NCBI RefSeq assembly: GCF_945873775.1
Contig: NZ_CAMCEC010000021.1
Location: forward strand, 1-40,838
Length of the DNA: 40,838 nt
Source: an uncultured Treponema sp.
Lineage (GTDB): Bacteria > Spirochaetota > Spirochaetia > Treponematales > Treponemataceae
Reading direction: 5' to 3'
Shown: positions 7,845-38,999 of the stretch, one piece after another
Numbering within the stretch: the first letter of the stretch is position 1
How the letters are laid out: every line of letters begins with the position of its first letter
Notes under the pieces: generated by a model
Told to the model about the DNA's origin: nothing
The model's input: the letters and a program-made list of their open reading frames with translations, nothing else
Database searches by the model: none
Made by a program: the position numbers and the translations under genes

Positions 7845-7866
7845 TTGCTGTGTAAAACTGAAAAGA

Positions 7867-9460: not shown

Positions 9461-9494
9461 GTTAAAGTTGTGCAATTACGGTTGCAATAAGAAG

Positions 9495-9522: not shown

Positions 9523-9529
9523 TATTTTA

Positions 9530-9557
9530 GATTCTCGTATCAAGTACGGGAATGACA
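9530..9557 (+). repeat. Intergenic palindrome, 9-5-9 family, copy 3
   Basis: G + stem 9531-9539 / loop TCAAG / stem 9545-9553 + GACA. One position pairs only as a wobble. Confidence 0.8.
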
Positions 9558-9577
9558 GTTAAGAATGCACCATTATT

Positions 9578-9605
9578 TGTCATTATCCGGCTAGACCGGA
9601 TAATC
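9578..9605 (-). repeat. Intergenic palindrome, 9-5-9 family, copy 4 (inverted)
   Basis: TGTC + stem 9582-9590 / loop CTAGA / stem 9596-9604 + C. It ends 8 bases before the stop of the fumarate-reductase-like gene, so it may lie in that gene's 3' transcript. Confidence 0.85.
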
Positions 9606-9612
9606 TTATATT

Positions 9613-11346
9613 TTATTTTTTTATTTCTTCAAGCGCGGTGTCGGCGGCGATTTTTCCGTAGATGCAAATGTCTGCTACTGCGTTTCCTCCAAGTCGGTTT
9701 GCGCCGTGGATTCCGCCTGTAACTTCGCCAGCCGCATAAAGTCCAGGCACAGGATTTTTATCTGCGTTTAAAACTTGCGCCTTTGTGTTTATTGTTATTC
9801 CGCCCATTGTGTGGTGGACTGCAGGACCTACTTCAACAGCGTAGAACGGAGCTTTTGTAAGTGGTCGCGGCATTTCTGAAGACTTTCTGCCAAATGGGTC
9901 GTTTCCTGATTTTTGAATCTGCACATAATCTGCCATTGTTTTTTCAAATTCATCGCTAGGAATTTCAAGTTTTTCCGCAAGTTCTTTTGCAGTTTCGCCT
10001 TGGGTAATAAGTCCGTTTTTTATATAAGTTTCAATTGCCTTGAGGGATTCGCGCACATCCTGGTCAAATACAAGAAATGCTGTTTTTCCTTTTTGCTCAA
10101 GAATTGCCTTTGACATTACATCGCGTGTCGCCATTTCTGTGCAGAATCTTTTTCCATCGCGGTTTACAAGAATTGCTCCGTTTCCGCGGACAGCTTCTGT
10201 AATCATTGTGCCGTTTCCTGGAACAACAGTTGGATGAGTTTGTATTTCTTCCATCTGAGTAAGACCTGCGTTGAATTTTTTTATCCAGCCGAATGCGTCT
10301 CCAGTTGCGCCCTTGTGGTTTGTAGTTCCAAATCCTTCTAGTTCAGGCTTGTATGAAACGACCATCTGCGGATTTGCTCCGAATCCTCCGGTTGCAATTA
10401 TTACGGCTTTTGCGCTGATTGTATATTCGCTGCTTCCTGCTGAAACTTTTACGCCAGCTGCTCTTCCGTCTTTTTCTGTTATGTCGAGAACTTTGTTTGA
10501 ATAGCGGATTTCTGCTCCAGCGTTCAATGCTGCCTTTTCAAGCGCGGGAATCAGGTTTGAGCCAACTGCGGCTCCTCCTTGCGGGCGGTGAGTGCGCTTG
10601 TTTGTGGAACCTGCCATTTTTCCAACATCAGTCAAGTCTGCGCCAATTGAAATAAGCCAGTCCACGGTTTCTGCGGATTTTTCAGTCATGTTGCGCACAA
10701 GTTCTGGATTGTTTTTGTAATGTCCGCCTTTCATTGTGTCTTCAAAAAACTGCTCGTTTGTGTCTTGAATTCCAAGCTTTTTTTGAATTGAAGTTTCACT
10801 CGCATTGAGTCCGCCTGTCGCAGAAATTGTGTTTCCGCCAGCGTTTCCCATTTTTTCAAGGACGATTACTTTTGCGCCTTTGCTTGCGGCTTCTGTTGCT
10901 GCAGAAAGTCCTGCTCCGCCCGCTCCGATTATAACAATGTCGCAGGAAGTATCTTTGTATTCTGTCTGTTCTGATTTTTTTCCGCGGGCTGAATTTATTG
11001 CGTTTCCCAATGCCGCTAAAGTTGCCTTGGAAGTTATTGTTGCGCCAGAAACTGTGTCGATTCCGGCAGTTTTTCCTGTTGAAGCGAATTTTTCAAGAAT
11101 TGATTTTATTGCAGGTTTTGCAAAATCTGTTTCTTCTTCTTTTAGAATTTCTGTGGAAGTGATTTTGCCGTCTTTTACAGAAAATGCGATTTCAATTGCG
11201 CCGTTTCTTCCGTCTGCTTTGCCAGAAAATGTTCCGTCCGGCAGTGGTTTTGGCTTTGAACAAGCTGACATTACAGCTATTGAAATTCCTGACGCAACTA
11301 TAAAAACTGCCGCTGCCAGTGAATTCCGTAGATTCTTGTGATTCAT
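9613..11346 (-). CDS. Exported flavin fumarate reductase-like lipoprotein (FMN-binding + FAD domains)
   Basis: A 577-residue flavoprotein. The N-terminus is a lipoprotein signal ending in lipobox VMSAC (Cys 29). Residues about 40-120 form an FMN-binding domain with DTVSGATITS, the site where ApbE links FMN to Thr. From residue about 135 is a flavocytochrome-c-type FAD domain (VIIGAGGAGLSAA). Catalytic landmarks of Shewanella Fcc3 fumarate reductase are kept: TEAVRGNGAILVNRDGKRF with EMATRD, VHHTMGGI and GGIHGANRLGGNA. It should reduce fumarate or a similar unsaturated acid outside the inner membrane, using flavin instead of haem as electron entry. Urocanate or acrylate-type substrates remain possible. 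GGAGG precedes the ATG. Confidence 0.85.
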   Translation of the reverse strand: MNHKNLRNSLAAAVFIVASGISIAVMSACSKPKPLPDGTFSGKADGRNGAIEIAFSVKDGKITSTEILKEEETDFAKPAIKSILEKFASTGKTAGIDTVSGATITSKATLAALGNAINSARGKKSEQTEYKDTSCDIVIIGAGGAGLSAATEAASKGAKVIVLEKMGNAGGNTISATGGLNASETSIQKKLGIQDTNEQFFEDTMKGGHYKNNPELVRNMTEKSAETVDWLISIGADLTDVGKMAGSTNKRTHRPQGGAAVGSNLIPALEKAALNAGAEIRYSNKVLDITEKDGRAAGVKVSAGSSEYTISAKAVIIATGGFGANPQMVVSYKPELEGFGTTNHKGATGDAFGWIKKFNAGLTQMEEIQTHPTVVPGNGTMITEAVRGNGAILVNRDGKRFCTEMATRDVMSKAILEQKGKTAFLVFDQDVRESLKAIETYIKNGLITQGETAKELAEKLEIPSDEFEKTMADYVQIQKSGNDPFGRKSSEMPRPLTKAPFYAVEVGPAVHHTMGGITINTKAQVLNADKNPVPGLYAAGEVTGGIHGANRLGGNAVADICIYGKIAADTALEEIKK

Positions 11347-11419
11347 ATATTCCTCCGAAAAATTTATTGCCGGTAAAAATATACATTAAAAACACAAGTT
11401 AGCATAGACTAATTGTTGC

Positions 11420-12220
11420 TTAAAATTCTTCGTCTTCAAGCTGGACGCAGTTTGGATTGTTGCGGCACCAGTTTTCTGAATATGAAGTTTTTTTGCAGAA
11501 AATTTTTACAGAAGTTCCGAATGCGCTGTTTTCAATAAAATCCACTGATTCAGGAATTATTACTTTTGTGTTGCTTCCGCAGTTTACAAAAGATTCTTCG
11601 CCGATGCTTATAACGCCTTCCCGAAGCTTTATAGATTCCATGTCTGTTCCAAAAAATGCTCTTCTTCCGATTCCCTTTATTCCTTCAGGAGTTACGACAT
11701 TTTTTTTGCTTCCGCTGTAAAACAAAAGCATGCTGTTGAATGTGTTGAGCATCATTCCGTCTTCGTACTTGTAGTTTTTGTTTATTGGAAGATATTTTTC
11801 ACTGTTTGGAAATGCTGATTTTGCGCATGAAATCAAGTTGTCTGGAAGAACAAGATTTTTTATTCCAGTGCAGTTTGCGAATGCCTTTTCATTTATGGAA
11901 GTAATGTTTTCGTGCAGAACAATTGACTGAAGCCCTGTGCAGTCTTCAAAAGTTCCTTCTTCAATTGTTGTGATGTTTGAAGGAATATCTACGGATTCAA
12001 GGGATGCGCAGTTGTAGAATGCACGCTTTCCGATTGCCATTAAATTTGCAGGAAGCTCAACCGACTTTAAATTCACACAGTCGGCAAATGCGTTTTCCCC
12101 GATTACAAGGACGCTTTCTGGAATTTTTATAGAAGAAACCATGCGGTGGTTGTGAAAAGTTGTTCCTGTTATTTCTGTTGTTCCCTCTGGAATTTCAACA
12201 TCGATTAAAGGCAAATCCAT
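11420..12220 (-). CDS. BspA-type leucine-rich-repeat protein (LRR_5)
   Basis: A 266-residue protein made of about eight to nine 23-residue repeats with the pattern IGENAFADCxxLKSVxLPxNL, typical of BspA/TpLRR (LRR_5) repeats abundant in treponemes and other gut or oral anaerobes. Such repeats bind proteins or surfaces. No signal peptide or lipobox is seen: it begins MDLPLIDVEIPEG. It is therefore either cytoplasmic or exported by another route. A short acidic tail follows the repeats. GGAG lies 6 bases before the ATG and the region further upstream is very AT-rich, shared with the divergent pseudouridine synthase promoter. Confidence 0.85.
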   Translation of the reverse strand: MDLPLIDVEIPEGTTEITGTTFHNHRMVSSIKIPESVLVIGENAFADCVNLKSVELPANLMAIGKRAFYNCASLESVDIPSNITTIEEGTFEDCTGLQSIVLHENITSINEKAFANCTGIKNLVLPDNLISCAKSAFPNSEKYLPINKNYKYEDGMMLNTFNSMLLFYSGSKKNVVTPEGIKGIGRRAFFGTDMESIKLREGVISIGEESFVNCGSNTKVIIPESVDFIENSAFGTSVKIFCKKTSYSENWCRNNPNCVQLEDEEF

Positions 12221-12306
12221 TTTTAGCTCCGATATATAATTAATTATATTATATTATCATTCTTGGCTTTTGATGTCTAATGTTTTTTCGGATTTGTGCG
12301 CAACGT

Positions 12307-12335
12307 TTGAACTTTATTCAGATTATTTATATAGT
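12307..12335 (+). promoter_or_regulatory. Leaderless-type promoter of the RluA-like gene
   Basis: TTGAAC (12307-12312), 17-base spacer, TATAGT (12330-12335), then 6 bases to the ATG at 12342. This places the promoter inside a longer open frame and redefines the start of the gene. Confidence 0.65.
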
Positions 12336-12341
12336 AGAGAC

Positions 12342-13259
12342 ATGAAAGAAACTTTGCATTTTGTAAAAGCCAGCACAAGATACAAGAGAGAGCATAAAAG
12401 CGACTATGGAAAGGAACGCATAGAAATTCTGTATGAAGACAAGGATCTTGTTGTTATAAACAAAGCATCTGGGCTTCTTTCTGTTCCGTATCCGGGAAGC
12501 AAATCTCGCACAGCAATTGAGCTTTTGGAAAAAATCATGCGTAAAAAAGGAACTTTTTCTGAAAGCCACCGACCCTTTGTTGTGCATCGTTTGGACAGAG
12601 ACACAAGCGGAGTTATGATGTTTGCCTTGAATGAAAGGGTACAGAAAAAAATAATGTCCAGCTGGAAAACTATGGTTACAGATAGGCTTTACCGTGCTGT
12701 TGCAGAAAACCCTAGAAGAAATCATACTGAACTGCCGGATTCTGGCCTCATAGATGAGCCGCTTGCAAAAAATGCGTGCCACCAAGGTTATGTTCCAAAA
12801 AAACTTGATGACAAGGCAGAAACTTGTGAAGCGCGCACAAATTTCCGTGTTGTATTGCGGGGCAGAACTCATACACTTTTTGAGCTGTCTTTGGATACAG
12901 GCAAGAAAAACCAGATAAGGGCGCATTTGGCTTCAAAGCATTATCCGCTTGCCGGAGATGAAAATTATAGGGCCAGAACTGACCCCTTCCACAGGCTTGC
13001 GCTTCATGCAAGGACTTTGGCATTTATTCATCCTGTTACTGGGGAAAAAATGAACTTTGAAATTCCAGAGCCAGAAGAATGGGAGCAGTATGTTCAAAAA
13101 GGAGATTTGCATCCAGAAATTCCAGTTTGGGCTAACGAACGTAAGGAGCGGATTCAACATAATGCGCAAGTTGAAAATATGAAAACTCCCGACCATTCGT
13201 TACGTCGGCAAGCTAGAAAAATGGATTTTATTGCACGCGGAAAATCAGGAATAAAATAA
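12342..13259 (+). CDS. RluA-family rRNA/tRNA pseudouridine synthase
   Basis: A 305-residue pseudouridine synthase with the catalytic motif HRLDRDTSGVM (the Asp after the second Arg is the nucleophile). It also has the conserved IDEPLAKN-like block and the KKNQIRAHL and HALHAR-type region near the C-terminal end of the fold. No N-terminal S4 domain is present, as in RluA or RluC-lacking-S4 relatives. A basic tail of about 40 residues follows the catalytic domain. The frame is open from a TTG at 12270, but a well-formed promoter ends 6 bases before the ATG at 12342, so I place the start there. The exact uridine target is unknown. It is followed by an AT-rich hairpin. Confidence 0.85.
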   Translation: MKETLHFVKASTRYKREHKSDYGKERIEILYEDKDLVVINKASGLLSVPYPGSKSRTAIELLEKIMRKKGTFSESHRPFVVHRLDRDTSGVMMFALNERVQKKIMSSWKTMVTDRLYRAVAENPRRNHTELPDSGLIDEPLAKNACHQGYVPKKLDDKAETCEARTNFRVVLRGRTHTLFELSLDTGKKNQIRAHLASKHYPLAGDENYRARTDPFHRLALHARTLAFIHPVTGEKMNFEIPEPEEWEQYVQKGDLHPEIPVWANERKERIQHNAQVENMKTPDHSLRRQARKMDFIARGKSGIK

Positions 13260-13280
13260 AACTAACGATAGTTTTTTATT
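13258..13280 (+). terminator. AT-rich hairpin after the RluA-like gene
   Basis: AAAACTA (13258-13264), loop ACGA, TAGTTTT (13269-13275), running into further T residues. It overlaps the stop codon. The stem is weak in GC, so termination is only plausible. Confidence 0.4.
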
Positions 13281-13331
13281 ATCACACTGATTTATTAGAA
13301 AAAACTATAGCTGGCTATAAAGAAAATCTTC

Positions 13332-13360
13332 TTGTAGCACAACTTGAATTTCACTATTAT
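13332..13360 (+). promoter_or_regulatory. Leaderless-type promoter of metNI
   Basis: TTGTAG (13332-13337), 17-base spacer, TATTAT (13355-13360), 6 bases to the metN ATG. A short inverted repeat TATAGC-TG-GCTATA lies just upstream at 13306-13319 and could be a regulator site; no S-box riboswitch is possible in so short a leader. Confidence 0.6.
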
Positions 13361-13366
13361 TTTATT

Positions 13367-14386
13367 ATGCAGATTAAACTTAACAATTTGAAAAAAACAT
13401 ATTCAGGTCCAAACGGAAAAATTGCCGCTGTAAATGGAATTTCACTGGATATTCCTGAAAATACAATTTTTGGAATAATCGGAAAAAGCGGCGCTGGAAA
13501 AAGCAGCCTTGTTCGTTTGATAAGCCTTCTTGAAAAGCCAGACGAAGGTGAAATTTTTTATAACAATGACAGAGTTGACAACCTTGGCAAGCGTGAGCTT
13601 ATTTTGCGCCGCAGAAAGATTGGTATGATTTTTCAAAATTTTAATCTGTTCAGCTCAAGAACCGCTGAAAAAAATATCGCTTATCCTCTTGAAATTTGCG
13701 GAACTCCAAAGGAAGTCATAAATCCGCGTGTTCAGGAAATGCTTAAGCTTGTCGGACTTGAAGACAGAGCTGCTTCTCCGATAAGCACACTTTCCGGCGG
13801 ACAAAAGCAGAGAATTGCAATTGCCCGTGCGCTTGCAACTCAGCCGGATATTCTTTTTTGCGATGAAGCCACGAGCGCGCTTGATCCGCAGACAACAACT
13901 TCAATTTTGAATTTAATCCGCGACATTCAGAAGAAAATGAATTTGACAGTTGTAATGATTACCCATCAGATGGAAGTTGTGCGCGATGCCTGTGAGCAGG
14001 TTGCTGTTGTTGATTCTGGAAAAATTGTGGAGCAGGGAAGCGTAAAGGAAATTTTCAGCTGTCCTAAATCAGAAGTTACAAAAGAATTTATGAGAGGAAT
14101 TGCTTCAAATTCCAAAGATGAAATTGTGCGCTGGTCTGATGAAGGCGGGCAGTTTGAACTTCATTTTGTCGGAGAAAAAACTGGAGAGCCTGTTCTAAGC
14201 CGCATGGCAAAGCAGTTCGATGTGGAATTTAATATCAGGGCAGGCGGAATTCAGCGTATAAAAAACGAAGACATTGGAGCTATGTTTGTTGATTTTTCCG
14301 GCAAAAAAACTGAAATAGAAAAGGCTCTTGATTTTCTGAGGGAGCAAGGCATTATTGTTGAAGACGTTTCTGGAGGAAAAAAATGA
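13367..14386 (+). CDS. metN: Methionine ABC importer ATP-binding protein with NIL domain
   Basis: A 339-residue ATPase. Residues 1-240 are the ABC domain with Walker A GKSGAGKSS, Q-loop IFQNFNLF, signature LSGGQKQR, Walker B ILFCDEATSALD and H-loop ITHQ. Residues about 260-337 form the NIL (ACT-like) domain that in E. coli MetN binds methionine and shuts the transporter off. This supports the methionine assignment over other amino acids. The start has no Shine-Dalgarno sequence and sits 6 bases after a -10 box. metI overlaps its end by 4 bases. No substrate-binding metQ follows. Confidence 0.92.
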   Translation: MQIKLNNLKKTYSGPNGKIAAVNGISLDIPENTIFGIIGKSGAGKSSLVRLISLLEKPDEGEIFYNNDRVDNLGKRELILRRRKIGMIFQNFNLFSSRTAEKNIAYPLEICGTPKEVINPRVQEMLKLVGLEDRAASPISTLSGGQKQRIAIARALATQPDILFCDEATSALDPQTTTSILNLIRDIQKKMNLTVVMITHQMEVVRDACEQVAVVDSGKIVEQGSVKEIFSCPKSEVTKEFMRGIASNSKDEIVRWSDEGGQFELHFVGEKTGEPVLSRMAKQFDVEFNIRAGGIQRIKNEDIGAMFVDFSGKKTEIEKALDFLREQGIIVEDVSGGKK

Positions 14387-23141: not shown

Positions 23142-23191
23142 CGTTCCATGCTATGTATTTTATTGTTTTGGATTTTTTTTTAGGAGGAAAA

Positions 23192-24523
23192 ATGAAAAAA
23201 TTTGTTAAAGTTGCAGCTGCCGTTGCTATGGCGGCATCTTCTGCTTTTATGCTTGCTTCATGCGGCGGAAAAAAACAGCTCACAGTTCGCTATTTGAACT
23301 TCAAGCCGGAAGTTGCAGGTGTTTATCAGGAACTTGCAGATGAGTATGAGAAAGAAACTGGCGTAAAAGTTGTTGTTGAAACAGCGGCAAACAATTCCTA
23401 TGAACAGACTCTTATGTCAAAAATGTCAACAAAAGAAGCTCCAACTCTTTTCCAGATTAACGGACCACGCGGATATGCAAACTGGAAATCATATTGCGCA
23501 GATCTTTCAAACACAGAAATCTACAAGCATCTTTCTGACAAGTCTTTGGCTGTAACTTCTGGAAAAGGAGTTTACGGTGTTCCTTATGTTGTAGAAGGCT
23601 ACGGAATCATTTACAACAAGGCTCTCACAGACAAATATTTTGCTCTTTCAAACAAGGCAGTTCCATATTCAAGCATGGAAGAAGTAAACAACTTTGCAAA
23701 GCTCAAGGCTGTTGCTGATGATATGCAGAAGAACGCAAAAGTTCTTGGAATCGATGGTGTTTTCGCTTCTACATCATTGAAAGCCGGCGAAGACTGGAGA
23801 TGGCAGACTCACCTTGCAAACCTTCCAGTTTACTATGAATTCAAGAACAACAAAATTGACCTTGCTTCTGACGCAACAAAGAAAATCAAGTTCCAGTACG
23901 GAAAAGAATTCCAGAACATTCTTGACCTTTATTTGAACGATTCAACTGTTGACCGCAAGGCTGTTGGAACAAAAACAGTTACAGATTCTATGTCTGAATT
24001 TGCTCTTGAAAAATGTGTAATGGTTCAGAACGGAAACTGGGCTTGGGGACAGGTTGCTGGTGTTTCGGGAAACAAAGTTCTTCCAGAAAATGTAAAATAT
24101 CTTCCAATCTACACAGGAGTTGAAGGCGAAGAATCACAGGGCTTGTGCATTGGAACAGAAAACTTCTATTGTATCAACGCAAAAGCTTCAGCAGAAGAGC
24201 AGAAAGCTACAGCAGACTTCGTATACTGGCTCTATTCAAGCGACTTTGGAAAGAACTATGTAACAAACAAGCTTGGATTCATTGCTCCGTTTGACACATT
24301 CTCTGACAGCGAACGTCCAACAGATCCTCTTGCAGTTGAAATCAGCAACTGGATGAGCAAGCCTGGAATTACTTCTGTTGCATGGAACTTCACATTGTTC
24401 CCTTCACAGACATTCAAAGACAACTTCGGAGCTTCTTTGCTTAGATATGCACAGGGTTCAAAGAGCTGGGACGATGTTGCAGCTGATGTTGTTTCTACAT
24501 GGGAAAAAGAATCTAATATGTAG
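23192..24523 (+). CDS. Sugar ABC importer, substrate-binding lipoprotein (family 1)
   Basis: A 443-residue extracellular solute-binding protein of the MalE/family 1 type. The signal peptide ends in lipobox LASC (Cys 26), so the protein is lipid-anchored. Features include YELADEYEKETGVKV-like ELADEYEKETGVKV, VYGVPYVVEGYGIIYNK and MVQNGNWAWGQV. The start at 23192 is set by a strong AGGAGG 5 bases upstream; an ATG at 23153 in the same frame would add an unlikely hydrophobic prefix. With malQ in the same operon, a malto-oligosaccharide ligand is the best guess, but not proven. Two hairpins separate it from the permease genes. Confidence 0.87.
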   Translation: MKKFVKVAAAVAMAASSAFMLASCGGKKQLTVRYLNFKPEVAGVYQELADEYEKETGVKVVVETAANNSYEQTLMSKMSTKEAPTLFQINGPRGYANWKSYCADLSNTEIYKHLSDKSLAVTSGKGVYGVPYVVEGYGIIYNKALTDKYFALSNKAVPYSSMEEVNNFAKLKAVADDMQKNAKVLGIDGVFASTSLKAGEDWRWQTHLANLPVYYEFKNNKIDLASDATKKIKFQYGKEFQNILDLYLNDSTVDRKAVGTKTVTDSMSEFALEKCVMVQNGNWAWGQVAGVSGNKVLPENVKYLPIYTGVEGEESQGLCIGTENFYCINAKASAEEQKATADFVYWLYSSDFGKNYVTNKLGFIAPFDTFSDSERPTDPLAVEISNWMSKPGITSVAWNFTLFPSQTFKDNFGASLLRYAQGSKSWDDVAADVVSTWEKESNM

Positions 24524-24529
24524 AATTTT

Positions 24530-24554
24530 CGCGGAGTCTGAAAAAGATTCCGCG
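24530..24554 (+). other. Intercistronic hairpin 1 after the binding-protein gene
   Basis: CGCGGA-g-TCT (24530-24539) pairs with AGA-t-TCCGCG (24545-24554) around a short A-rich loop. Only a weak U-run follows, so it is more likely an mRNA-stabilising or partial termination element than a full terminator. Confidence 0.6.
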
Positions 24555-24592
24555 TGTCTTTCACAGTCCTTCATTAGTTAAAAATATATCTG

Positions 24593-24636
24593 TTCCTGCG
24601 GTGGGGCTTATCATGCAATTGGTTTTGCCGCAGGAA
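24593..24636 (+). other. Intercistronic hairpin 2 before the permease genes
   Basis: TTCCTGCGG (24593-24601) pairs perfectly with CCGCAGGAA (24628-24636) around a 26-base loop. No U-tract follows. Its position just before the permease leader suggests control of mRNA stability or of the ratio between binding protein and permeases. Confidence 0.6.
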
Positions 24637-24663
24637 TGCCTTTCAATTCTTCAGAGGTGAAAA

Positions 24664-25512
24664 ATGAAAAAACCATTGGCGGGGTATTTCCCTATATTTC
24701 TTTTGCCTACTTTGCTGGCATTTGCAATGTTTTTCGTGATTCCTTTTTTAATGGGAATCGGACTTTCTTTCACGGACTTTCCTACTGTTACAGATGCTAC
24801 TTGGGTTGGCTTTGCGAACTATATCAAGGCTTTTACCGCGGACAATGAATTTATTCACGCTCTGGGTTTTACTTCATTATTCACTGTTGTTTCAATTGTA
24901 ACTGTAAATGTTTTTGCATTCAGCCTTGCGGTTCTTCTTACAAGGGAACTTAAAGGAGTTTCGATTTTCCGCTCGATTTTCTTTATGCCGAACTTAATTG
25001 GCGGAATCGTTTTGGGATATATTTGGAATCTTCTTATAAACGGCGTTCTTTCGCACTTTGGAATGGACATAACTTTTAAGACGCAGTTTGGTTTTTGGGG
25101 ACTTGTAATCCTTACAAACTGGCAGCTCATCGGATATATGATGGTAATTTACATTGCCGGACTTCAGAATATTCCGAATGATCTGATTGAGGCGGCTCAG
25201 ATTGACGGAGCTTCTTCAATGACTGTCCTTTTCAAGATAAAAATTCCAATGGTAATGCCTTCAATTACAATTTGTACTTTCCTTACGCTTACAAACACAT
25301 TCAAGATGTTTGACCAGAACTTGGCATTGACAGCCGGCGCTCCAGAAAAAACAACTGAGATGCTTGCTTTGAACATATATAACGCTTTCTACGGACGCAA
25401 TATGCACTGGCACGGAGTTGGACAGGCTAAGGCTGTTGTTTTCTTCATTATAGTTGCGGCTATTGCATTTATTCAGCTTAAGCTTACAAACCAGAAGGAG
25501 GTTGAACAATGA
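24664..25512 (+). CDS. Sugar ABC importer permease, MalF-like
   Basis: A 282-residue inner-membrane permease with six predicted membrane segments. The EAA loop reads EAAQIDGASSMTVLFKIKIPMVMP, and FNANLIGGIVLGYIW-like FMPNLIGGIVLGYIWN precedes it, as in MalF/UgpA-type CUT1 permeases. The ATG follows a GAGGTG ribosome site. It overlaps the next permease gene by 4 bases. No ATPase gene lies in this operon. Confidence 0.9.
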   Translation: MKKPLAGYFPIFLLPTLLAFAMFFVIPFLMGIGLSFTDFPTVTDATWVGFANYIKAFTADNEFIHALGFTSLFTVVSIVTVNVFAFSLAVLLTRELKGVSIFRSIFFMPNLIGGIVLGYIWNLLINGVLSHFGMDITFKTQFGFWGLVILTNWQLIGYMMVIYIAGLQNIPNDLIEAAQIDGASSMTVLFKIKIPMVMPSITICTFLTLTNTFKMFDQNLALTAGAPEKTTEMLALNIYNAFYGRNMHWHGVGQAKAVVFFIIVAAIAFIQLKLTNQKEVEQ

Positions 25513-26354
25513 CACTTTCAAAGCAGAAGACCTGCAGCAACACAATAGCTTTTGTTTTTCTTTGCTTGCTTTCGGCTATATTTTTAATTCCGATTTTGCT
25601 TGTTTTGCTCAATTCCTTTAAGTCTCGCCTTTATATTTCAAGTTCGCCGTTTGCAATGCCGAACTCAGAGACTTTCGTTGGTTTTGAAAATTACCTGAAC
25701 GGACTTTCGTCTTCGGGATTCTTTATTTCGTTTATCCGCTCTGTGTGGGTTTCAATTGCTTCGGTTCTTGTGATTATTGTCTGCACATCAATGGCTTCCT
25801 GGTTCATTGTCCGTGTAAAAAACAAATTTACAAAGGCAATTTATTTCCTGTTTGCATTCAGCATGATTGTTCCGTTCCAGATGGTTATGTACACAATGAC
25901 TTTCATTGTAAACAGAATCAGCTTTGACAATGTTTTTGGAATTGTCTTTGTTTACCTTGGATTCGGAGCCGGACTTTCTGTGTTTATGTTTACGGGATTT
26001 GTAAAGGCTGTTCCGCTTGAAATTGAAGAAGCTGCTGAAATTGACGGCTGCAATCCGCTTCAGACTTTCTTCCTTGTTGTTTTCCCGATTCTAAAGCCTA
26101 CTATTATTACGGTTTCAATCTTGAATTCGATGTGGGTTTGGAACGACTATTTGCTTCCTTATCTTATTTTGGGAACTGACCACAAAACTGTTCCTGTTGC
26201 AATTCAGATTGCAATGCAGGGAGCTTACGGCGCAACTGATTACGGCGGATTCATGGCGATGCTTGTTCTTGCGATTATTCCGATTGTAATTTTCTACATT
26301 GCTTCGCAGAAATACATTATAAAAGGCGTAATTTCCGGGGCGGTAAAAGGCTAA
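25509..26354 (+). CDS. Sugar ABC importer permease, MalG-like
   Basis: A 281-residue permease with six membrane segments and the EAA loop EEAAEIDGCNPLQTFFLVV followed by FPILKPT. The ending KYIIKGVISGAVKG is the usual MalG-type C-terminus. AGGAGG lies within the end of the preceding gene, directly before the ATG, and the two genes overlap by 4 bases. Together with its partner it forms the membrane channel of a CUT1 sugar importer. Confidence 0.9.
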   Translation: MTLSKQKTCSNTIAFVFLCLLSAIFLIPILLVLLNSFKSRLYISSSPFAMPNSETFVGFENYLNGLSSSGFFISFIRSVWVSIASVLVIIVCTSMASWFIVRVKNKFTKAIYFLFAFSMIVPFQMVMYTMTFIVNRISFDNVFGIVFVYLGFGAGLSVFMFTGFVKAVPLEIEEAAEIDGCNPLQTFFLVVFPILKPTIITVSILNSMWVWNDYLLPYLILGTDHKTVPVAIQIAMQGAYGATDYGGFMAMLVLAIIPIVIFYIASQKYIIKGVISGAVKG

Positions 26355-26372
26355 GGACACATTCAGGCTTGA

Positions 26373-26392
26373 GGGCGGATTTCCGCTCTTTT
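26373..26392 (+). other. Hairpin with short U-run between permease and regulator genes
   Basis: GGGCGG (26373-26378), loop ATTT, CCGCTC (26383-26388), one wobble pair, then four U residues. It may reduce read-through into the lacI-type gene; a weak attenuator is the best reading. Confidence 0.45.
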
Positions 26393-26447
26393 GCCGTATT
26401 GCTTTTAAGGTAAAAACAGCTTATTTAAAAATGCAGGAAGGTTTTAT

Positions 26448-27485
26448 ATGACAATCAAGGATATTGCTAGAGAGTGTGGCTGCGCCGTTGGAACTGTTTC
26501 GCGTGTTTTAAATAATCAGGCTTACGTAAGCGATGAAATGCGCAAGAAAGTTCTGGAAGTTGTAGCCAAGCATGACTTTGTTCTTAATAAAAACGCAAAG
26601 GAACTTAAATCCCGCGGAAGCAAGACAATTGTGATTATTGTAAAAGGAACAAACAATATGCTTTTTTACAATATTCTTGAGCTTATGCAAAAGCGGATTG
26701 AAAAACTTCCATACAATGCAAGCGTTGTTATTCTTGATGAATATGACAACGAGATTGTCGGTGAATACAGCAATGAAGCCCAGTGCGCCTTGAATATCTA
26801 CTACGAAAAAAAACCGCTCGGCTTTGTCTTTTTGGGCGGAAATCCAGAACGATTCAGCGAGGACTTTAAAAAAATAAAAGTGCCTTGCATTCTTATTACT
26901 ACCAAGCCAAAAAAAGAAGGCTTTGAAAATCTTTCAAGTGTAAGCACTGATGAATTTCAGGCTTCGCTTTATGTTGCCCGCTATTTTGTAAAGCACGGAC
27001 ACACAAAAATCGGGGTGATTGGCGGCGACTTTGAAAGTTCTGAAACTTCTAAAAACCGCTACGACGGATTTATTGAAGGCCTTGAGCTTGCAGGACTTGA
27101 TTTTGATTTTGAAAAATCTTACGTTACAACCCGCTACAGTTTTGAAGGCGGAGCTTCCGCGGCGGAAGAGCTTATAAAAAAATTTCCTGACTTGACTGCA
27201 ATTTTCTGTATGTCTGATGTTATGGCGATTGGAGCGTGCCGTAAACTTAAGCAGATGGGCTATTCAATTCCAGAAGATATTTCTATAATCGGATTCGACG
27301 GACTTTCCATTGCGGATTTTTATTGTCCTAGAATTACAACTGTAAAGCAGTCAAATGAGGATCTGGCTATACAAGGACTTAAAACTTTTATAGACTGCGT
27401 TGAAAAAAAAGCTCCGGCAGTTCATAAGATTATTCCGTTTGAATTTGTCGAAGGCGAAACTGTGAAATCAATTGTAAATAAATAA
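26448..27485 (+). CDS. LacI-family transcriptional regulator
   Basis: A 345-residue repressor. Residues 1-60 hold the LacI helix-turn-helix (MTIKDIARECGCAVGTVSRVLNN) and a hinge helix (NAKELKSRG) whose Leu is the lever that opens the central CG of the operator. The rest is a periplasmic-binding-like effector domain, with FCMSDVMAIGACR and PEDISIIGFDGLSIADF typical of the family. It lies between the permeases and malQ. The perfect palindrome at 23128-23141 is the likely binding site, giving sugar-induced control of its own operon. Confidence 0.9.
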   Translation: MTIKDIARECGCAVGTVSRVLNNQAYVSDEMRKKVLEVVAKHDFVLNKNAKELKSRGSKTIVIIVKGTNNMLFYNILELMQKRIEKLPYNASVVILDEYDNEIVGEYSNEAQCALNIYYEKKPLGFVFLGGNPERFSEDFKKIKVPCILITTKPKKEGFENLSSVSTDEFQASLYVARYFVKHGHTKIGVIGGDFESSETSKNRYDGFIEGLELAGLDFDFEKSYVTTRYSFEGGASAAEELIKKFPDLTAIFCMSDVMAIGACRKLKQMGYSIPEDISIIGFDGLSIADFYCPRITTVKQSNEDLAIQGLKTFIDCVEKKAPAVHKIIPFEFVEGETVKSIVNK

Positions 27486-27508
27486 ATTTAATATTTACGA
27501 GGAAATAT

Positions 27509-28993
27509 ATGTTGAACAAACGTGCTTGCGGTGTGCTGATGCACATTTCATCTTTACCTGGAAAAACAGGAATTGGAACAATGGGCAAAAACGCCTATGA
27601 GTTTGTTGATTATCTGAAAAGCGCAGACCAAAAGTACTGGCAGATTCTTCCGGTTTGCCCTACAAGCTATGGAGATTCGCCTTACCAGAGCTTTTCTACT
27701 TTTGCCGGAAATCCTTATTTTATTGATTTTGACTTTTTGGCGGAGCAGGGATTTTTGCAGAAATCCGACTACGAAAATGTAAACTGGGGCGGCAACGAGC
27801 GTTATGTGGACTACGGAACACTTTATATTGAACGCCATAAAGTTTTTTCAATAATCCAGAAAAATTTCAACAAAAACATTCCATCTGACTTTGATTCTTT
27901 CTGTGCTGAAAATGCGTTTTGGCTTGAAGACTATTCGCTTTTTATGGCGATAAAAGATGCGCACGGTGGAATCGCGTTTGACTTTTGGGAAGAAGACATT
28001 CGCTGCAGAAAGCCAGATGCCCTTGATGCTTGGAAAAAGAAATCTGCGGAACGTATGCAGTACTACAAAATGCTTCAGTATTTCTTCTTTAAGCAGTGGT
28101 ACGCCCTTAAAAAATATGCGAATGAAAAAGGAATTCAAATTATAGGCGATATTCCGATTTATGTTGCGGCAGACAGTTCAGATGTTTGGTCAAATCCAAG
28201 CCAGTTTATGCTTGACGAAAATTACAAGCCAATTGAAGTTGCCGGCTGCCCTCCAGATGGTTTTTCTGCGGACGGTCAGCTTTGGGGAAATCCTGTATAC
28301 AACTGGGAATACATGAAGCAGACTGATTACGCCTGGTGGAAAAAACGCCTTGAAAAAAGCATGGCGATTTACGATGTTATAAGAATTGACCATTTCCGCG
28401 GATTTGATTCTTTCTATTGTATTCCTTATGGCTCTACAAATGCGAAAGTTGGCGTTTGGCGTCAGGGACCGGGAATGGATTTGTTCAATTCTCTTAAAAA
28501 GCAGTTTGGCGAAATGCCTGTTATTGCGGAAGACCTTGGATTTCTTACAGACAGCGTAAAGCAGCTTTTAAAGGATTCAGGATTCCCTGGAATGAAAGTT
28601 CTTCAGTTTGCATTTGATTCACGTGAGACAAGCGACTACATTCCTTACCGCTACACACAGAATTGCGTTGTTTACACAGGAACTCATGACAACGACACAA
28701 TTCTTGGCTGGACAGAAACTGCCGCGAAAAAAGACGTAGAAAATGCAAAAGAATATCTTCGTGTAAAAGAAAACCGCGATGTTGTAAAAGAAATGATGAT
28801 TGCCGCAATGTCAAGCGTTGCAAATACTTGCATTCTTACTATGCAGGATTTGATTGGACTTGGCAAAGAAGCCCGCATGAATATTCCGTCAACAGTCGGA
28901 AACAACTGGAAATGGCGCGCAACAAAAGAGCAGTTTTCAGAAGATTCCAAGAATTTCCTTGCGCACTTTACGCATCTTTACGGAAGAGCTTAA
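27509..28993 (+). CDS. malQ: 4-alpha-glucanotransferase (GH77)
   Basis: A 494-residue amylomaltase of the short GH77 form without the N-terminal extension of E. coli MalQ. Start motif RACGVLMHISSLPGKTGIG is typical. The catalytic nucleophile Asp is in IRIDHFRGF, the acid/base Glu in VIAEDLGF, and the transition-state Asp in TGTHDNDT. It moves alpha-1,4-glucan segments between malto-oligosaccharides in the cytoplasm, releasing glucose. It is the last gene of the sugar operon, 23 bases after the regulator with a GAGGA ribosome site, and supports a malto-oligosaccharide substrate for the importer. Confidence 0.93.
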   Translation: MLNKRACGVLMHISSLPGKTGIGTMGKNAYEFVDYLKSADQKYWQILPVCPTSYGDSPYQSFSTFAGNPYFIDFDFLAEQGFLQKSDYENVNWGGNERYVDYGTLYIERHKVFSIIQKNFNKNIPSDFDSFCAENAFWLEDYSLFMAIKDAHGGIAFDFWEEDIRCRKPDALDAWKKKSAERMQYYKMLQYFFFKQWYALKKYANEKGIQIIGDIPIYVAADSSDVWSNPSQFMLDENYKPIEVAGCPPDGFSADGQLWGNPVYNWEYMKQTDYAWWKKRLEKSMAIYDVIRIDHFRGFDSFYCIPYGSTNAKVGVWRQGPGMDLFNSLKKQFGEMPVIAEDLGFLTDSVKQLLKDSGFPGMKVLQFAFDSRETSDYIPYRYTQNCVVYTGTHDNDTILGWTETAAKKDVENAKEYLRVKENRDVVKEMMIAAMSSVANTCILTMQDLIGLGKEARMNIPSTVGNNWKWRATKEQFSEDSKNFLAHFTHLYGRA

Positions 28994-29290: not shown

Positions 29291-31450
29291 ATGAAAAAAC
29301 TGATTTTTTCTCTTTTGGTGGCATCGGCTTTGCTTGTTTCGTTTGCTTTTGGAAAATCCGCAAAAAACGAAGAGCCGGAAGAATCTGAGCCAACTTCAAA
29401 TCTTATAAAAAACGGAGATTTCAGCAAAGGAAAAAAATTCTGGGATATGTTCCTTTCAAATGGAAGCGCGGATCAGCTTGTAACTGAAAACGGCGAAATG
29501 GAAATCCGCATAAAAAATCCCGGACCTTATGAATATGCAATTCAGCCGTATTTTGACGGATTTTCTTTGTACAAGGGCGGCGTTTACAAATATTCTTTTG
29601 ACGTTCATTCTTCTATAGAAAGAACTTTTGAATGGCGGCTTCAGGTGAACGGAAGAGATTACCACGCTTATGTTGGCGGCTGGGATTCTGTGGGAAAAGA
29701 AACCAAGCACATTGAATCTACATTTACAATGCGTGAGCCTACAGATTTTTCTCCGCGGCTTGTTTTGAATGTTGGAATGGGAAAAGGTTGCCCGAAAGAC
29801 ATGAAGGGACATTCAATTTTCTTTGATAACTTTGATCTTGAGCTTGTTGACGCTTCTGGAATTACTGAAATTGTTACTTCAACAACGACTTCAAATGTCA
29901 ATTTGAACCAGCTGGGGTATTTGCCTTCCGCAAAGAAAACTGCTGTTGTCCGTTCAAAGAAAAGAGCGAAAATTTCTGGAACTTTTGATGTTATAGACAC
30001 AAAAACTGAAGCTGTTGTTTTTTCCGGTAAGCTGAAAAATGCAAAATTTAATGAAGCTTCTGGCGAGCAGACTGCAATTGCGGATTTTTCAAAACTTTCC
30101 GCGGAAGGAACTTACAAAATCAAGGCTGGAAAATACGGCGAGTCATTCGAGTTTAAAATTGCAAACAATATTTACGATGGAATTTTAAAAAGCGCAATAA
30201 GATTTTTTTATCTGCAAAGATGCGGAACAAAAGTTCAGGATGCGGATTTTGGTCACCCGGAATGCCACACAACGCGCGCAGTTGTTTACGGCAATGTTGA
30301 AACTTCTTACGATGTGAACGGCGGCTGGCACGATGCCGGCGACTACGGACGCTATGTTGTTCCTGCCGCAAAGGCTGCCTGCGACCTGATGCTTGCCTAT
30401 GAGCACAACAAAAATGCGTTTGCTTCTGAAAATATTCTTGATGAAATAAAATACGAGCTTGACTGGATGCTTAAAATGCAAATTCCAGAAACCGGGGCTG
30501 TGTTCCATAAAGTTTCTTGCAGAGAATTTCCTGGAGAAGTTATGCCGCAGGACGAAAAAGACAGACTCGTTTTGTGTCCTGTTTCAACTGCCGCTACTGC
30601 TGATTTTGCCGCTGCAATGGCAATGGCTTCAAGAATTTTCAAAGAATATGAGGAAAGCGCAAAATATTCCGATGCCGCAAAAAAGGCATGGGGCTATCTT
30701 GAAAAAACTCCTTTTGACGGAAAAGGTTTTACAAATCCGATTTTGTTTACAACCGGAGCTTACAATGATTCGCAGGATGCTGATGAAAGATTTTGGGCGC
30801 TTGCAGAGCTTTATAAAACTTTTGGGGACGAAAAATATCTTGAGCTTTTAAAAGTTTATGATCCGTTTGAAATCGGACAGGATCTTGGTTGGCAGCAGGT
30901 TGGGCTTTACGGACTTTTTGAATATCTTTCAAGTGATGCTCCAAAAGATTCATTTTATCAAAAAGTACAAAAGGCGTTTCTTTCAAAGACTAATGAAAAA
31001 CTCAAGAATGTTGCCGCGGATTCTTACGATGTTTCACTTTCAATGTATGAATATGTCTGGGGAAGTAATATGGGAGTCGCAAACAACGGAATGCTTTTCT
31101 TGCTGGCGGACAGAATTTCTCCAAACAAAAAATACAAAGAAGCTGCAAAATGCCAGATTGACTATTTGCTTGGAAAAAATACAACTTCGTACTGTTTTGT
31201 AACTGGATTTGGAACACTTTCTCCGATTCTTCCGCACCACAGACCTTCGCAAGTTGCCAAAAAGCCTATGCCGGGAATGCTTGTAGGCGGCCCTGACTCA
31301 AAGCTTGAAGATCCTTTTGCGCGTGCAAATCTTTCTGACGCTCCTTATGCTGCCTGCTACATAGACAGTGTTCAAAGTTATTCATGCAACGAAGTTACAA
31401 TTTACTGGAATTCGCCGCTTGTTTATTTGATTTCAGGCTGCATGGAATAA
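29291..31450 (+). CDS. Secreted GH9 endoglucanase with N-terminal CBM4/9-like module
   Basis: A 719-residue exported glycoside hydrolase. A signal peptide of about 21 residues (ending FAFG) lacks a lipobox. Residues about 36-187 form a CBM4/9-like module (SNLIKNGDFSKGKKFW through IFFDNFDLELVD). Residues about 203-290 are the Ig-like CelD_N domain (VNLNQLGYLP). Residues about 295-715 are the GH9 barrel. The catalytic base Asp is in WHDAGDYGRY (about 345-352), the conserved HHRP lies near 656, and the acid Glu is in CNEVTIYWNSP (about 700). It should cleave beta-1,4-glucans such as cellulose or mixed-linkage glucan. AGGAG precedes the ATG; a TATAAT lies at 29242-29247 but no good -35, suggesting an activator. 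Confidence 0.92.
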   Translation: MKKLIFSLLVASALLVSFAFGKSAKNEEPEESEPTSNLIKNGDFSKGKKFWDMFLSNGSADQLVTENGEMEIRIKNPGPYEYAIQPYFDGFSLYKGGVYKYSFDVHSSIERTFEWRLQVNGRDYHAYVGGWDSVGKETKHIESTFTMREPTDFSPRLVLNVGMGKGCPKDMKGHSIFFDNFDLELVDASGITEIVTSTTTSNVNLNQLGYLPSAKKTAVVRSKKRAKISGTFDVIDTKTEAVVFSGKLKNAKFNEASGEQTAIADFSKLSAEGTYKIKAGKYGESFEFKIANNIYDGILKSAIRFFYLQRCGTKVQDADFGHPECHTTRAVVYGNVETSYDVNGGWHDAGDYGRYVVPAAKAACDLMLAYEHNKNAFASENILDEIKYELDWMLKMQIPETGAVFHKVSCREFPGEVMPQDEKDRLVLCPVSTAATADFAAAMAMASRIFKEYEESAKYSDAAKKAWGYLEKTPFDGKGFTNPILFTTGAYNDSQDADERFWALAELYKTFGDEKYLELLKVYDPFEIGQDLGWQQVGLYGLFEYLSSDAPKDSFYQKVQKAFLSKTNEKLKNVAADSYDVSLSMYEYVWGSNMGVANNGMLFLLADRISPNKKYKEAAKCQIDYLLGKNTTSYCFVTGFGTLSPILPHHRPSQVAKKPMPGMLVGGPDSKLEDPFARANLSDAPYAACYIDSVQSYSCNEVTIYWNSPLVYLISGCME

Positions 31451-31461
31451 AAGAGCTTAAA

Positions 31462-31490
31462 AAACTGTCGTGTAAAAAGTACGGCAGTTT
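31462..31490 (+). other. Hairpin between the GH9 gene and the HD-GYP gene
   Basis: AAACTGTCGT (31462-31471) pairs with ACGGCAGTTT (31481-31490), one wobble, around a 9-base loop. The following T-run is too short for a confident terminator, so read-through from the cellulase gene into the HD-GYP gene is likely. Confidence 0.5.
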
Positions 31491-31510
31491 ATCATGGAAA
31501 AGATGCTGCT

Positions 31511-32836
31511 ATGAAAAAGTTCTTAAAGAAAATTTATATAGTTCTTCTCGCAGTTTCGTTTGTGGCTGTAACAGTCGGATTTTTTATATTCGCCACAACA
31601 AAGGAATTTATTACCGAAAATGATATTTCTCCAGATGTTCAGTTTTCAATAGGAAAACGTCAGCTAAAAGGCGATGTCTGGACAACTTATGTTCCTTACA
31701 TTGCTTCTATTCATCCGGGAAAAGGAAATCTTACAGGCAGAATTTACACTGGAGTTGTAAAAAATCTTAACAAGCGCGCAATAAAAGACTGGAGCGTGGA
31801 AATAAACATAACGCAGCCTTGCTATCTGAACAATGCCTGGAACGGATTTGTTGAAATTTACAAAAGCCGGGCTGAAAAAAATCCGTCTCAGCCTTTAATA
31901 GACTTAAAAAAAGCGAAGGAATCTGACTTTTCAATTAGGACAATAAAAAATCTGAACAACATTCTTATTCCGCTTGATCCTGGAAGCAGAATTGTTTTTT
32001 ATCCAAGCATAGAAAAATATATTCCGGGCAGAGTGCAGGATGTGAACAGCATTTCCATGGGCTTTGTTTTCTACACAGAAGATACAGACAGCTTAATGAA
32101 ATTCAAATCTTGGAAAGTAAATTACAAGTTTGAAAATGATTTATTTTACCGTCCGTTTTTCTATGCCTTTTTGCTTTTTTACATAATGTGGCTTTGTCTT
32201 GTGATTTCAAGAATCAGGCTTCATTCGATAAGGCTTGCAAAAGAAAGGGAGCGCGAGCACGACAGGCTTACTCTTGAGCAGGTAATAAAAGCGTTTACAA
32301 AATTTATCGATGCCAAGGACATTTACACAGGCGGACACTCTGAACGCGTTGCAAAATACTCGTATATGCTTGCAAAGGAAATGGGCAAGTCCAGCGATGA
32401 ATGTCTTAATGCCTATTATTGCGGACTTTTCCATGACTGCGGAAAAATCGCTATTCCTGACGAAATTATAAGAAAGCCTGAAAAGCTTACTGATGATGAA
32501 TACAAGCTTATGCAAAGCCACACAACAACAGGCTACAATCTTCTAAAGGAACTTACATTGATTCCAGACGCTTGCCTTGCCGCCCTTTATCACCACGAGC
32601 GCATTGATGGCACAGGATACCCTAAAGGCCTTAAAGGAAATGAAATTCCTGAAATTGTGCGCATTATTTCTGTTGCTGATGTTTTTGACTGCATGAGCCA
32701 AGACCGCTGCTATATAAAGGCTTTTCCGCTGGAAAAAATTATAGAGGACTTTAAGATGAACAGCGGCAAGCAGTTTGACCCTGATGTTGTAAAAGCGTTC
32801 CTGAGCCTTGCAGAAAAAGGCGCGTTCAAGGTTTAA
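31511..32836 (+). CDS. Membrane HD-GYP phosphodiesterase with extracytoplasmic CBM2-like sensor domain
   Basis: A 441-residue protein. TM1 spans residues about 7-29; an outer domain covers about 37-200; TM2 spans about 216-240; a short charged linker leads to an HD-GYP domain (about 255-438). The domain keeps HDCGKI (about 307), HHERIDGTGYPKGL (about 361) and DVFDCMSQDR, so c-di-GMP hydrolysis is expected. The outer domain resembles a type 2 cellulose-binding module: VKNLNKRAIKDWSVEINI followed by NNAWNGFVEIY and IPLDPGSRIVF matches the order and the spaced tryptophans of CBM2a from Cellulomonas Cex, recalled from memory. It lies 60 bases after the GH9 cellulase gene. A role as glucan-contact sensor lowering c-di-GMP is an inference. 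Confidence 0.8.
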   Translation: MKKFLKKIYIVLLAVSFVAVTVGFFIFATTKEFITENDISPDVQFSIGKRQLKGDVWTTYVPYIASIHPGKGNLTGRIYTGVVKNLNKRAIKDWSVEINITQPCYLNNAWNGFVEIYKSRAEKNPSQPLIDLKKAKESDFSIRTIKNLNNILIPLDPGSRIVFYPSIEKYIPGRVQDVNSISMGFVFYTEDTDSLMKFKSWKVNYKFENDLFYRPFFYAFLLFYIMWLCLVISRIRLHSIRLAKEREREHDRLTLEQVIKAFTKFIDAKDIYTGGHSERVAKYSYMLAKEMGKSSDECLNAYYCGLFHDCGKIAIPDEIIRKPEKLTDDEYKLMQSHTTTGYNLLKELTLIPDACLAALYHHERIDGTGYPKGLKGNEIPEIVRIISVADVFDCMSQDRCYIKAFPLEKIIEDFKMNSGKQFDPDVVKAFLSLAEKGAFKV

Positions 32837-35597: not shown

Positions 35598-35741
35598 TGA
35601 TTTTAAGAAGAGTTTTTCATTCCTTCTAATTTTTACCTTTCAAATTTTGCATTTTACGTTCATGTTTTTGCAAGTTGCTTAAAATCATCTTTTCTATTTT
35701 TTTGCTAGCCTGTAAAGTTTTGCTTAAAAGTGGAGGCAATA

Positions 35742-36377
35742 ATGATTTTAGAAGCTGTGCTTTTGGGGCTTTCAACAGGAACTTACTGCGCAATGTACTG
35801 CGGTCCTGTGCTGATTCCTTTTTTATGCGGAACAGAAAGAATTTCTTGTAGGCGGAATGCTGGATTGCTTTGGCTATTTTTGGCTTCAAGGCTTGCAATG
35901 TATTTTTTCCTTGGATTTATTTTTAGCATGATGGGAATTCTTGCAAGTGAATTTTTTGATCCGTATTTTGCAAGACGGCTTTCTGTGTATGCCTACATTT
36001 TCTGTGGAACTGCGCTTCTTTTAAATTCATTTGGCGCAAAGTTTCCGTGGAAAAAAAATGGGTGCAAATGCGTTTCTTTAAAAATAGCCGGCAATGATTT
36101 TTTGACTGCGGTTTTTGCGGGGCTTGCAGTGGGACTTCATATTTGCGCTCCTTTGTGGGCTGCCATTGCGAGGTCTGTATTTTTTGCAAACAGGCTGAAG
36201 GGAATTTTTTATCTTGTTTTCTTTTACATTGGAACGCTTCCGTTTTTTCTTCCGCTCCTTGGAATTCCGCTTGTTCAAAAAATATTTCCTGTGATGAAAA
36301 GAATTTCACGGATTGCGCAGTTTTTAATCGGTTTTTATTTCCTTATTTTTGAAGGCTTAATAAAGCTGTTTTTTTAA
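35742..36377 (+). CDS. SafE/UreH-like membrane protein with TM cysteine motif
   Basis: A 211-residue membrane protein with six predicted segments. The first segment contains GTYCAMYCGPVL, a variant of the CxGMCGP motif of the sulfite-exporter TauE/SafE and UreH/DsbD-like group. Related proteins are found beside CcoG polyferredoxins in cbb3 oxidase assembly clusters and beside metal ATPases, where thiol or metal transfer is suspected. The start at 35742 is set by TGGAGG 5 bases upstream. It is the first gene of a five-gene same-strand cluster and lies 20 bases before the polyferredoxin gene. Metal or reductant transport is a guess. Confidence 0.65.
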   Translation: MILEAVLLGLSTGTYCAMYCGPVLIPFLCGTERISCRRNAGLLWLFLASRLAMYFFLGFIFSMMGILASEFFDPYFARRLSVYAYIFCGTALLLNSFGAKFPWKKNGCKCVSLKIAGNDFLTAVFAGLAVGLHICAPLWAAIARSVFFANRLKGIFYLVFFYIGTLPFFLPLLGIPLVQKIFPVMKRISRIAQFLIGFYFLIFEGLIKLFF

Positions 36378-37586: not shown

Positions 37587-38999
37587 ATGAAAAAAATTAT
37601 TTATTACTTTATGGTTTTTCTGTGCGGCTTTACTTGTCTTGCCGGTGTTTCGCTGTTTTTTATAAATGAAGATTCTGTGCAAAATTTTATGGTGAAATCG
37701 CTGAAGCTAAAAAATTCTCCTTGGCTTAACGGCGGAAAAATTGCTTCGGATTTCTTTGACGAATCTTGTGATGACAACGGAAGCGGAAAATTAAATTATC
37801 CAGATTATGAGCAGTTTGAAAAAGGTTCTCTGGACTTGATTCGCTACACCGTGCATAAACCTGTTTACGAAGCAGTCTGGCAGCAGAACCCGGAATACTG
37901 GCAGCTTGACCTTGAGTTTAAATGCGGAATTCCTGATGTGCGAAACATTATGGTTTACATTGGCGCGGAAAATATAAACGGCGGTTCAACAGAGCCTTTG
38001 TTTGCGGATTCGGAAAATGTAAAGTTTGATATTTTTCATCCGTGGAATTTTGCAGTTTGGGTAAACAAGAAAAATGGAACTGTTTATAATTCAAGCCGGA
38101 CTTTAATTTGCGAAACCGAAAATTATTTTAAAAATAACGGAAAAGAAATTTTTGTGAGAATTCCGCTTGCAAAAAAAGAACTTCAGAAATTCTACACTTC
38201 AAAAGTTACGTGGCACTATGTTGTTGCTGGAGGATTTTCTGAATGGGACAAAGGTGGATTTTTGCCTTCAGATTCAGATGAAAAAATTTACGATTTGCTC
38301 GACGGATATTCTGCGCAAGTTTCTCAGAGCCAGCAGCTTTCTTCGCGCACTCTTTTTCCAGTTGAAGTAAAAATGAAAAATGAATCTTCGTTGCAGAATT
38401 CAGATTTTGAAAATGCAGTCAAAGAACGTTACAATGAATTTCAAAAGCAAAAAATAATTCCGCTTGATGAAACAAAAGATACGCCTGTTTTATTTTCAGA
38501 AAAACTTGAATATGCAGTTTGCGTTTTTGAGCAGGGAGAATATAAAAAGGCCGAAAAACTTTTTTCAGAGCTTGTAGCCGAGCAGGAAAATTCTGCGCTT
38601 GCAAATGCGTATTATGGTTCGTGCCTTGCAATCCGTGGAGGAAATTCAAATGTGTTTGCGGCAATGAAACTTGTAAAGCAGTCGTTTGTGTATTTGGACA
38701 AAGCTGTTTCTCTTTGCGCCGGAACTGCTGATGAAATGGAAGTTCTTTTGAACCGCGCCAATGTTGCTTCTTCAGTTCCAGAAAGCGTGTTTAAAAAATC
38801 CGCAGTAGCTGGAGCAGACTTTGAGCGCATTGCAGAGCTTTATAAATCTTGTGCAGAATTTGACGAAGTTTCCGATGAAAAGAAAACAACGCTTGCATAT
38901 TATTACGTTTGCGCAGCGGAAAATTTCAGGAAAGCAGGACGCGAAACAGATGCCAAGCGAAATGCCTGGTACGCAGAAAAAATTTTTCAAAAGCAGTAG
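37587..38999 (+). CDS. Exported DOMON-like (glucodextranase C-type) protein with TPR-like tail
   Basis: A 470-residue protein with a signal peptide or N-terminal anchor (residues about 4-26). Residues about 55-215 resemble the C-terminal DOMON-like module of glucodextranase: DDNGSGKLNYPDYEQFEKGS then DLIRYTV, a VYIGAENINGGST-like segment and HYVVAGGFSEWDKGGF. DOMON modules bind haem or sugars. Residues about 300-465 are helical with TPR-like pairs, e.g. YAVCVFEQGEYKKAEKLFSE. No known enzyme motif is seen. It lies 25 bases after the polyferredoxin gene with AAGGAG upstream, so it could be the exported partner of that electron carrier. The haem or sugar ligand is unproven. Confidence 0.6.
   Translation: MKKIIYYFMVFLCGFTCLAGVSLFFINEDSVQNFMVKSLKLKNSPWLNGGKIASDFFDESCDDNGSGKLNYPDYEQFEKGSLDLIRYTVHKPVYEAVWQQNPEYWQLDLEFKCGIPDVRNIMVYIGAENINGGSTEPLFADSENVKFDIFHPWNFAVWVNKKNGTVYNSSRTLICETENYFKNNGKEIFVRIPLAKKELQKFYTSKVTWHYVVAGGFSEWDKGGFLPSDSDEKIYDLLDGYSAQVSQSQQLSSRTLFPVEVKMKNESSLQNSDFENAVKERYNEFQKQKIIPLDETKDTPVLFSEKLEYAVCVFEQGEYKKAEKLFSELVAEQENSALANAYYGSCLAIRGGNSNVFAAMKLVKQSFVYLDKAVSLCAGTADEMEVLLNRANVASSVPESVFKKSAVAGADFERIAELYKSCAEFDEVSDEKKTTLAYYYVCAAENFRKAGRETDAKRNAWYAEKIFQKQ

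Follow-up and report, generated by a model that had tools for sequence, protein, structure and literature searches.

An HD-GYP membrane protein with a CBM2-like outer domain beside a GH9 gene in Treponema: a candidate receptor for soluble beta-glucan

The contig NZ_CAMCEC010000021.1 of an uncultured Treponema sp., analysed here over its 40,838 nucleotides (the window), carries on its plus strand a gene for a GH9 enzyme of 719 amino acids (29291..31450) and, 60 bases further on, a gene for an HD-GYP membrane protein of 441 amino acids (31511..32836, from its open reading frame and Pfam), both with open reading frames. The locus raises the question of what such a protein, a putative phosphodiesterase of cyclic di-GMP (c-di-GMP), might sense beyond the inner membrane, and whether the neighbouring enzyme takes part. 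In our judgement, little is known of how gut bacteria that meet plant fibre decide whether to swim or to stay. We tentatively propose, at a little short of even chances, that 31511-32836 encodes a one-piece membrane receptor whose CBM2-like domain binds soluble beta-glucan in the periplasm and whose HD-GYP domain alters c-di-GMP destruction, with the GH9 enzyme supplying or trimming the chains. The computed basis of this reading comprises the order of the genes, their domain content, the predicted fold, the conservation of the tryptophans, the variety of outputs behind the outer domain and a gene pair present in four genomes; the periplasmic location, the class of ligand, the substrate and the coupling to GH9 are inferred.

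The outer domain and its tryptophans

The HD-GYP protein starts with a transmembrane helix (residues 10-26, 31538..31588), followed by the predicted periplasmic outer domain (residues 27-215, 31589..32155), delimited by helix placement, profile and predicted fold, and by a second helix (residues 216-232, 32156..32206). Both helices were located by hydropathy on L037, a near-identical 441-residue copy of the window protein. The initial annotation had noted a CBM2-type order of motifs, which is indeed found within residues 83-159: VKN at 83-85, DW at 93-94, AWN at 109-111 and PLDPGS at 154-159. This order is more than chance, since a profile built from 33 outer domains matches the solved chitin-binding domain of a chitinase (E 4e-4), the relative L065 clears the Pfam CBM_2 cut-off (36.3 bits versus 24), and the structure predicted for the domain is a beta-sandwich that matches CBM2, not an unrelated fold. 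The window protein itself reaches 11.7 bits (E 0.34), under the curated cut-off, which was passed by one of the eight relatives scanned (L065 only). Both results count against the motif order being more than chance, and we therefore call the domain CBM2-like and not a member of CBM2.

Foldseek placed Bd1399 first by E-value, at a TM-score of about 0.2, with many hydroxylase and seed-storage folds at low TM-scores. In the VIA list, rows for CBM2 or chitin-binding domains stand above the clathrin adaptors (6.8 and below); between them are a GH20 enzyme, at 7.8, and more rows of the CBM2 or chitin-binding kind, and CBM3 rows reach up to 6.0. The NCBIfam scan of the HD-GYP protein returned HD-type matches only.

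In the Cellulomonas fimi CBM2a of Cex, the excerpt of PMC5935602 describes W17, W54 and W72 as the strip that binds cellulose, and it includes one CBM2 with the first two platform tryptophans only. When L065 is aligned to 3ndy and 1exg, and in the family alignments, W57 of the window protein (31679..31681) corresponds to W17, a match that was partly read by hand, and W110 (31838..31840) to W54. The platform is incomplete: L065 has a Phe at the W72 position, and the window protein has no Trp between residues 110 and 201, this loss being again partly hand-read from the alignments. W94 (31790..31792) is the equivalent of W38 of the C. fimi CBM2, which we take to be a buried core residue. Of 111 aligned rows, 110 retain W57 (the remaining row has a gap), 111 retain W94 and 110 retain W110; among the 38 rows under 60% identity the numbers are 37, 38 and 37. 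The 111 rows include the window and near-copies and are part of the domain matches, themselves among the matches listed; L037 was left out as a near-copy of the window, and L046, L055, L069 and P0004 as truncated. Loss of these residues in homologues, named by the initial annotation as grounds for refuting a CBM2-like domain, therefore does not apply.

The HD-GYP output and relatives of the outer domain

The cytoplasmic part matches Pfam HD_5 (E 8e-34) over residues 263-426 (32297..32788), with motifs starting at 276 (HSERV), 308 (HDCGK), 337 (HTTTG), 360 (YHHER), 366 (DGTGYP) and 389 (ADVFD). The HD, HH and DGTGYP residues, presumably the metal ligands, align with those of 4mcw and 5z7c. The HD-GYP output recognised at the outset is thereby confirmed and c-di-GMP hydrolysis is predicted, the top-scoring solved relative of this part being a 3'3'-cGAMP enzyme (5z7c). 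The genome also has five GGDEF and three PilZ matches, which point to a network of c-di-GMP signalling.

Relatives of the outer domain occur in two bacterial phyla, in Treponema and in Lachnospiraceae, and are joined to three types of signalling protein: HD-GYP phosphodiesterases, class III nucleotide cyclases and histidine kinases. They range from L125, which is 99% identical and comes from a metagenome-assembled genome labelled Spirochaetales, through P0003 (62%, 'Treponema sp.') to more distant proteins, and those that carry a taxon name belong to Treponema, Pseudobutyrivibrio or Lachnospiraceae. Some class assignments are indirect: P0070 is called a kinase by its likeness to P0072, which alone has a HATPase match, and P0071 is a fragment that received its HD label by default in the tree. 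Pfam found no PAS domain in L050, a long HD-GYP form. The sensor gene follows a gene for a PAS-GGDEF-EAL protein in L126 (Pseudobutyrivibrio, 6095-7849; by Pfam), in L127 (Lachnospiraceae, 9229-14019; by eye), where it also precedes a propeller-type hybrid kinase, and in L053 (Treponema). In another genus of the family, the single genome G400 (L136-L138) holds five domain matches in four open reading frames, two of which are close neighbours on one contig. These data are compatible with a receptor family that crosses phyla, in which an enzyme-free input derived from CBM2 serves c-di-GMP phosphodiesterases, class III cyclases and histidine kinases and reports the cutting of plant-wall glucan, a proposal that we hold slightly more guardedly than that for the window protein.

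The same fold might have been re-used for another periplasmic ligand, such as strands of peptidoglycan, chitin-type oligosaccharides or a partner protein (for instance a lipoprotein or a protein of the outer membrane), in which case the protein would sense the state of the envelope and not food. We regard this as unlikely, yet as a serious competitor: the first and second platform tryptophans are near-invariant, the GH9 pair occurs in four genomes, and the named relatives, Treponema, Pseudobutyrivibrio and Lachnospiraceae, are gut fibre users, all of which argue against it.

The GH9 gene and its locus

The upstream protein combines matches to CBM_4_9 (residues 36-162, E 1.3e-9), the immunoglobulin-like CelD_N (199-283, E 1.6e-23) and GH9 (295-713, E 1.2e-96). 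It contains HDAGD (residue 347) and CNEVTIYW (residue 699), which we take to be the catalytic motifs of GH9, and its N-terminus looks signal-like by eye, in agreement with the secreted GH9 enzyme of the initial annotation. Its gene lies directly upstream of the sensor gene in four genomes (G000, G084, G145 and G031), and GH9 itself was found in 66 of the 196 genomes of the genus.

Several observations speak against a fixed pairing of the enzyme with the sensor. All four pairs represent one orthologous locus between malQ and aspS. At the same locus G162 has GH9, in the orientation seen in G031, without an HD-GYP gene and without a domain match, and around the GH9 genes of G121, G185, G098 and G182 no sensor reading frame was seen by eye. 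Across the 196 genomes GH9 and the domain show no co-occurrence (35 with both, 81 with the domain only, 31 with GH9 only and 49 with neither; Fisher p 0.22); among 20 hand-picked genomes with strong matches to the long domain, 4 have GH9 and 16 do not (p 0.22). A general partnership of the domain with GH9 was rejected by the genome-level test. The neighbours of 29 relative loci (L037-L065, a survey that left out the cyclase-type loci L066-L072) were also inspected, and the sensor reading frame could be placed in 27 of them (L046 and L056 remained unplaced). The upstream gene encodes GH9 in three (L039 by Pfam; L037 and L038, 97% identical to that of the window) and has no glycosidase match by Pfam in 22, eight of which have no Pfam match whatever and hence could encode an unrecognised enzyme; the upstream gene of L049 was judged by its likeness to L042 and L043, and that of L064 was not scanned.

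The 60-base gap (31451..31510) contains a hairpin with an 11-bp stem (31462-31472/31480-31490), which could weaken read-through from GH9 into the HD-GYP gene. It had been described as weak; a hairpin does exist, but the 71 bases around it, which include a second stem of 6 bp, fold at -16.1 kcal/mol (z -3.2). There is no long T run, and the hairpin was not reported as terminator-like. A similar hairpin shape is predicted between the two genes in G145; in G084 the gap is longer and its predicted fold is strong.

It follows from the single malQ-aspS locus, G162, the 22 other neighbours and the lack of co-occurrence that the GH9 link belongs to a single ancestral locus: the pairing of cellulase and sensor is real in four genomes and local. 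Carbohydrate sensing in general is suggested by the predicted fold and the tryptophans. GH9 and HD-GYP could accordingly be unrelated genes that happen to share the malQ-aspS interval, an explanation favoured by the single orthologous locus, by G162, by the absent genome-level association, by the 22 upstream genes and by the hairpin. We nevertheless consider it rather improbable. Against it, G031 keeps the pair as an inverted block in which the two genes overlap (by ATGA, provided that translation starts at the second ATG), with 62% identity to the window's GH9 and 42% to its HD-GYP protein. That the G031 pair lies in different flanks was considered and rejected, as malQ and aspS stand on its two sides and only the block is inverted.

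Other neighbours deserve mention. Upstream of GH9 lie genes for a solute-binding protein and a LacI-type regulator (Pfam), two permease-like reading frames (by eye) and malQ (GH77, E 8.6e-184), and downstream of the HD-GYP gene is aspS, of the aspartyl-tRNA-synthetase type (class II D/K/N domain). The set at 23153-28993 (sugar ABC transporter, LacI-type regulator and malQ) also borders GH9 in G162, there with GH9 inverted. The window further encodes a DsbD_2-type membrane protein (35730-36377) and a protein matching Glucodextran_C and TPR (37587-38999). A barrel-looking conserved protein, 60-67% identical among the three, is encoded upstream of the sensor in L042, L043 and L049 and is a possible periplasmic partner. 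In L045, L058 and L059 a gene for another conserved protein (hydrophobic N-terminus, 44-56% identical, no Pfam match) ends within 10 bases of the sensor gene.

Ligand access, proposed mechanism and known systems

Treponema has two membranes, and the genome contains an Omp85 match. Since the domain is in addition held between two inner-membrane helices, it most likely sits in the periplasm, where soluble chains that cross the outer membrane could reach it and crystalline cellulose could not. The domain is therefore outer with respect to the inner membrane, most likely without lying outside the cell as the initial annotation supposed. The genome also has families able to use soluble glucan chains (two GH94 and four GH5 matches). 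Pseudobutyrivibrio and Lachnospiraceae are Gram-positive, and there the CBM2-like domain would face the cell exterior, which is a point for contact with insoluble cellulose. Such contact outside the cell, as first suggested for the window protein, is very improbable: CBM2a modules bind crystalline cellulose (excerpts of PMC2914790 and PMC5935602), but Omp85 and the two helices put the domain beneath the outer membrane, and the third platform tryptophan is missing.

In the soluble-glucan receptor that we propose, the GH9 enzyme would supply or trim beta-glucan chains, and soluble chains, possibly its products, would bind the two-tryptophan face of the CBM2-like domain in the periplasm. The signal would cross helix 2 to the HD-GYP domain and change the rate of c-di-GMP hydrolysis, and glucan breakdown near the cell would thereby be reported to the c-di-GMP network. 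As for the sign, we would guess that a bound ligand stimulates the phosphodiesterase and promotes swimming. With a cellulose-binding fold connected to outputs through c-di-GMP, cyclic nucleotides and phospho-relay, these proteins would form a receptor family that spans two phyla and is open to testing; if the receptor reading is true, changing the two tryptophans should abolish sensing.

The CBM2 modules of cellulases, xylanases and chitinases (3ndy, 6qfs/1exg, 1xbd and 8ose) share with the window domain the beta-sandwich, the conserved order of N and W and two of their three platform tryptophans. They are enzyme appendages of about 105 residues, whereas the window domain is part of a membrane receptor and has 189 residues with inserts. 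The Saccharophagus genome paper, in its excerpt, mentions CBM2 proteins that carry domains of unknown function. Among the listed matches in the open-licence literature (titles and starts of abstracts), no paper concerned a CBM2-type sensor fused to an HD-GYP, cyclase or kinase output. HD-GYP phosphodiesterases such as 4mcw and the 3'3'-cGAMP enzyme 5z7c have the same catalytic domain and motifs as the window protein, which differs from them in its input domain and whose c-di-GMP substrate is putative. A link between carbohydrate and c-di-GMP is shared with EIIA-Glc/PdeS, through which sugar input occurs, and with 7TMR-DISMED2, whose carbohydrate role is predicted; the excerpt of the review that treats them (PMC8846402) contains no input of CBM2 type. 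The architecture recalls the RsgI anti-sigma factors of Clostridium thermocellum, membrane proteins with CBM3 or PA14 outer domains, several of which are reported to bind polysaccharides (excerpt of PMC4711584). Both combine an outer carbohydrate-binding module with an inner signalling part; in RsgI, however, the module is CBM3 and not CBM2, it is exposed on the outer cell surface, and the inner part binds a sigma factor, in place of which the window protein carries, according to Pfam, an HD-GYP domain.
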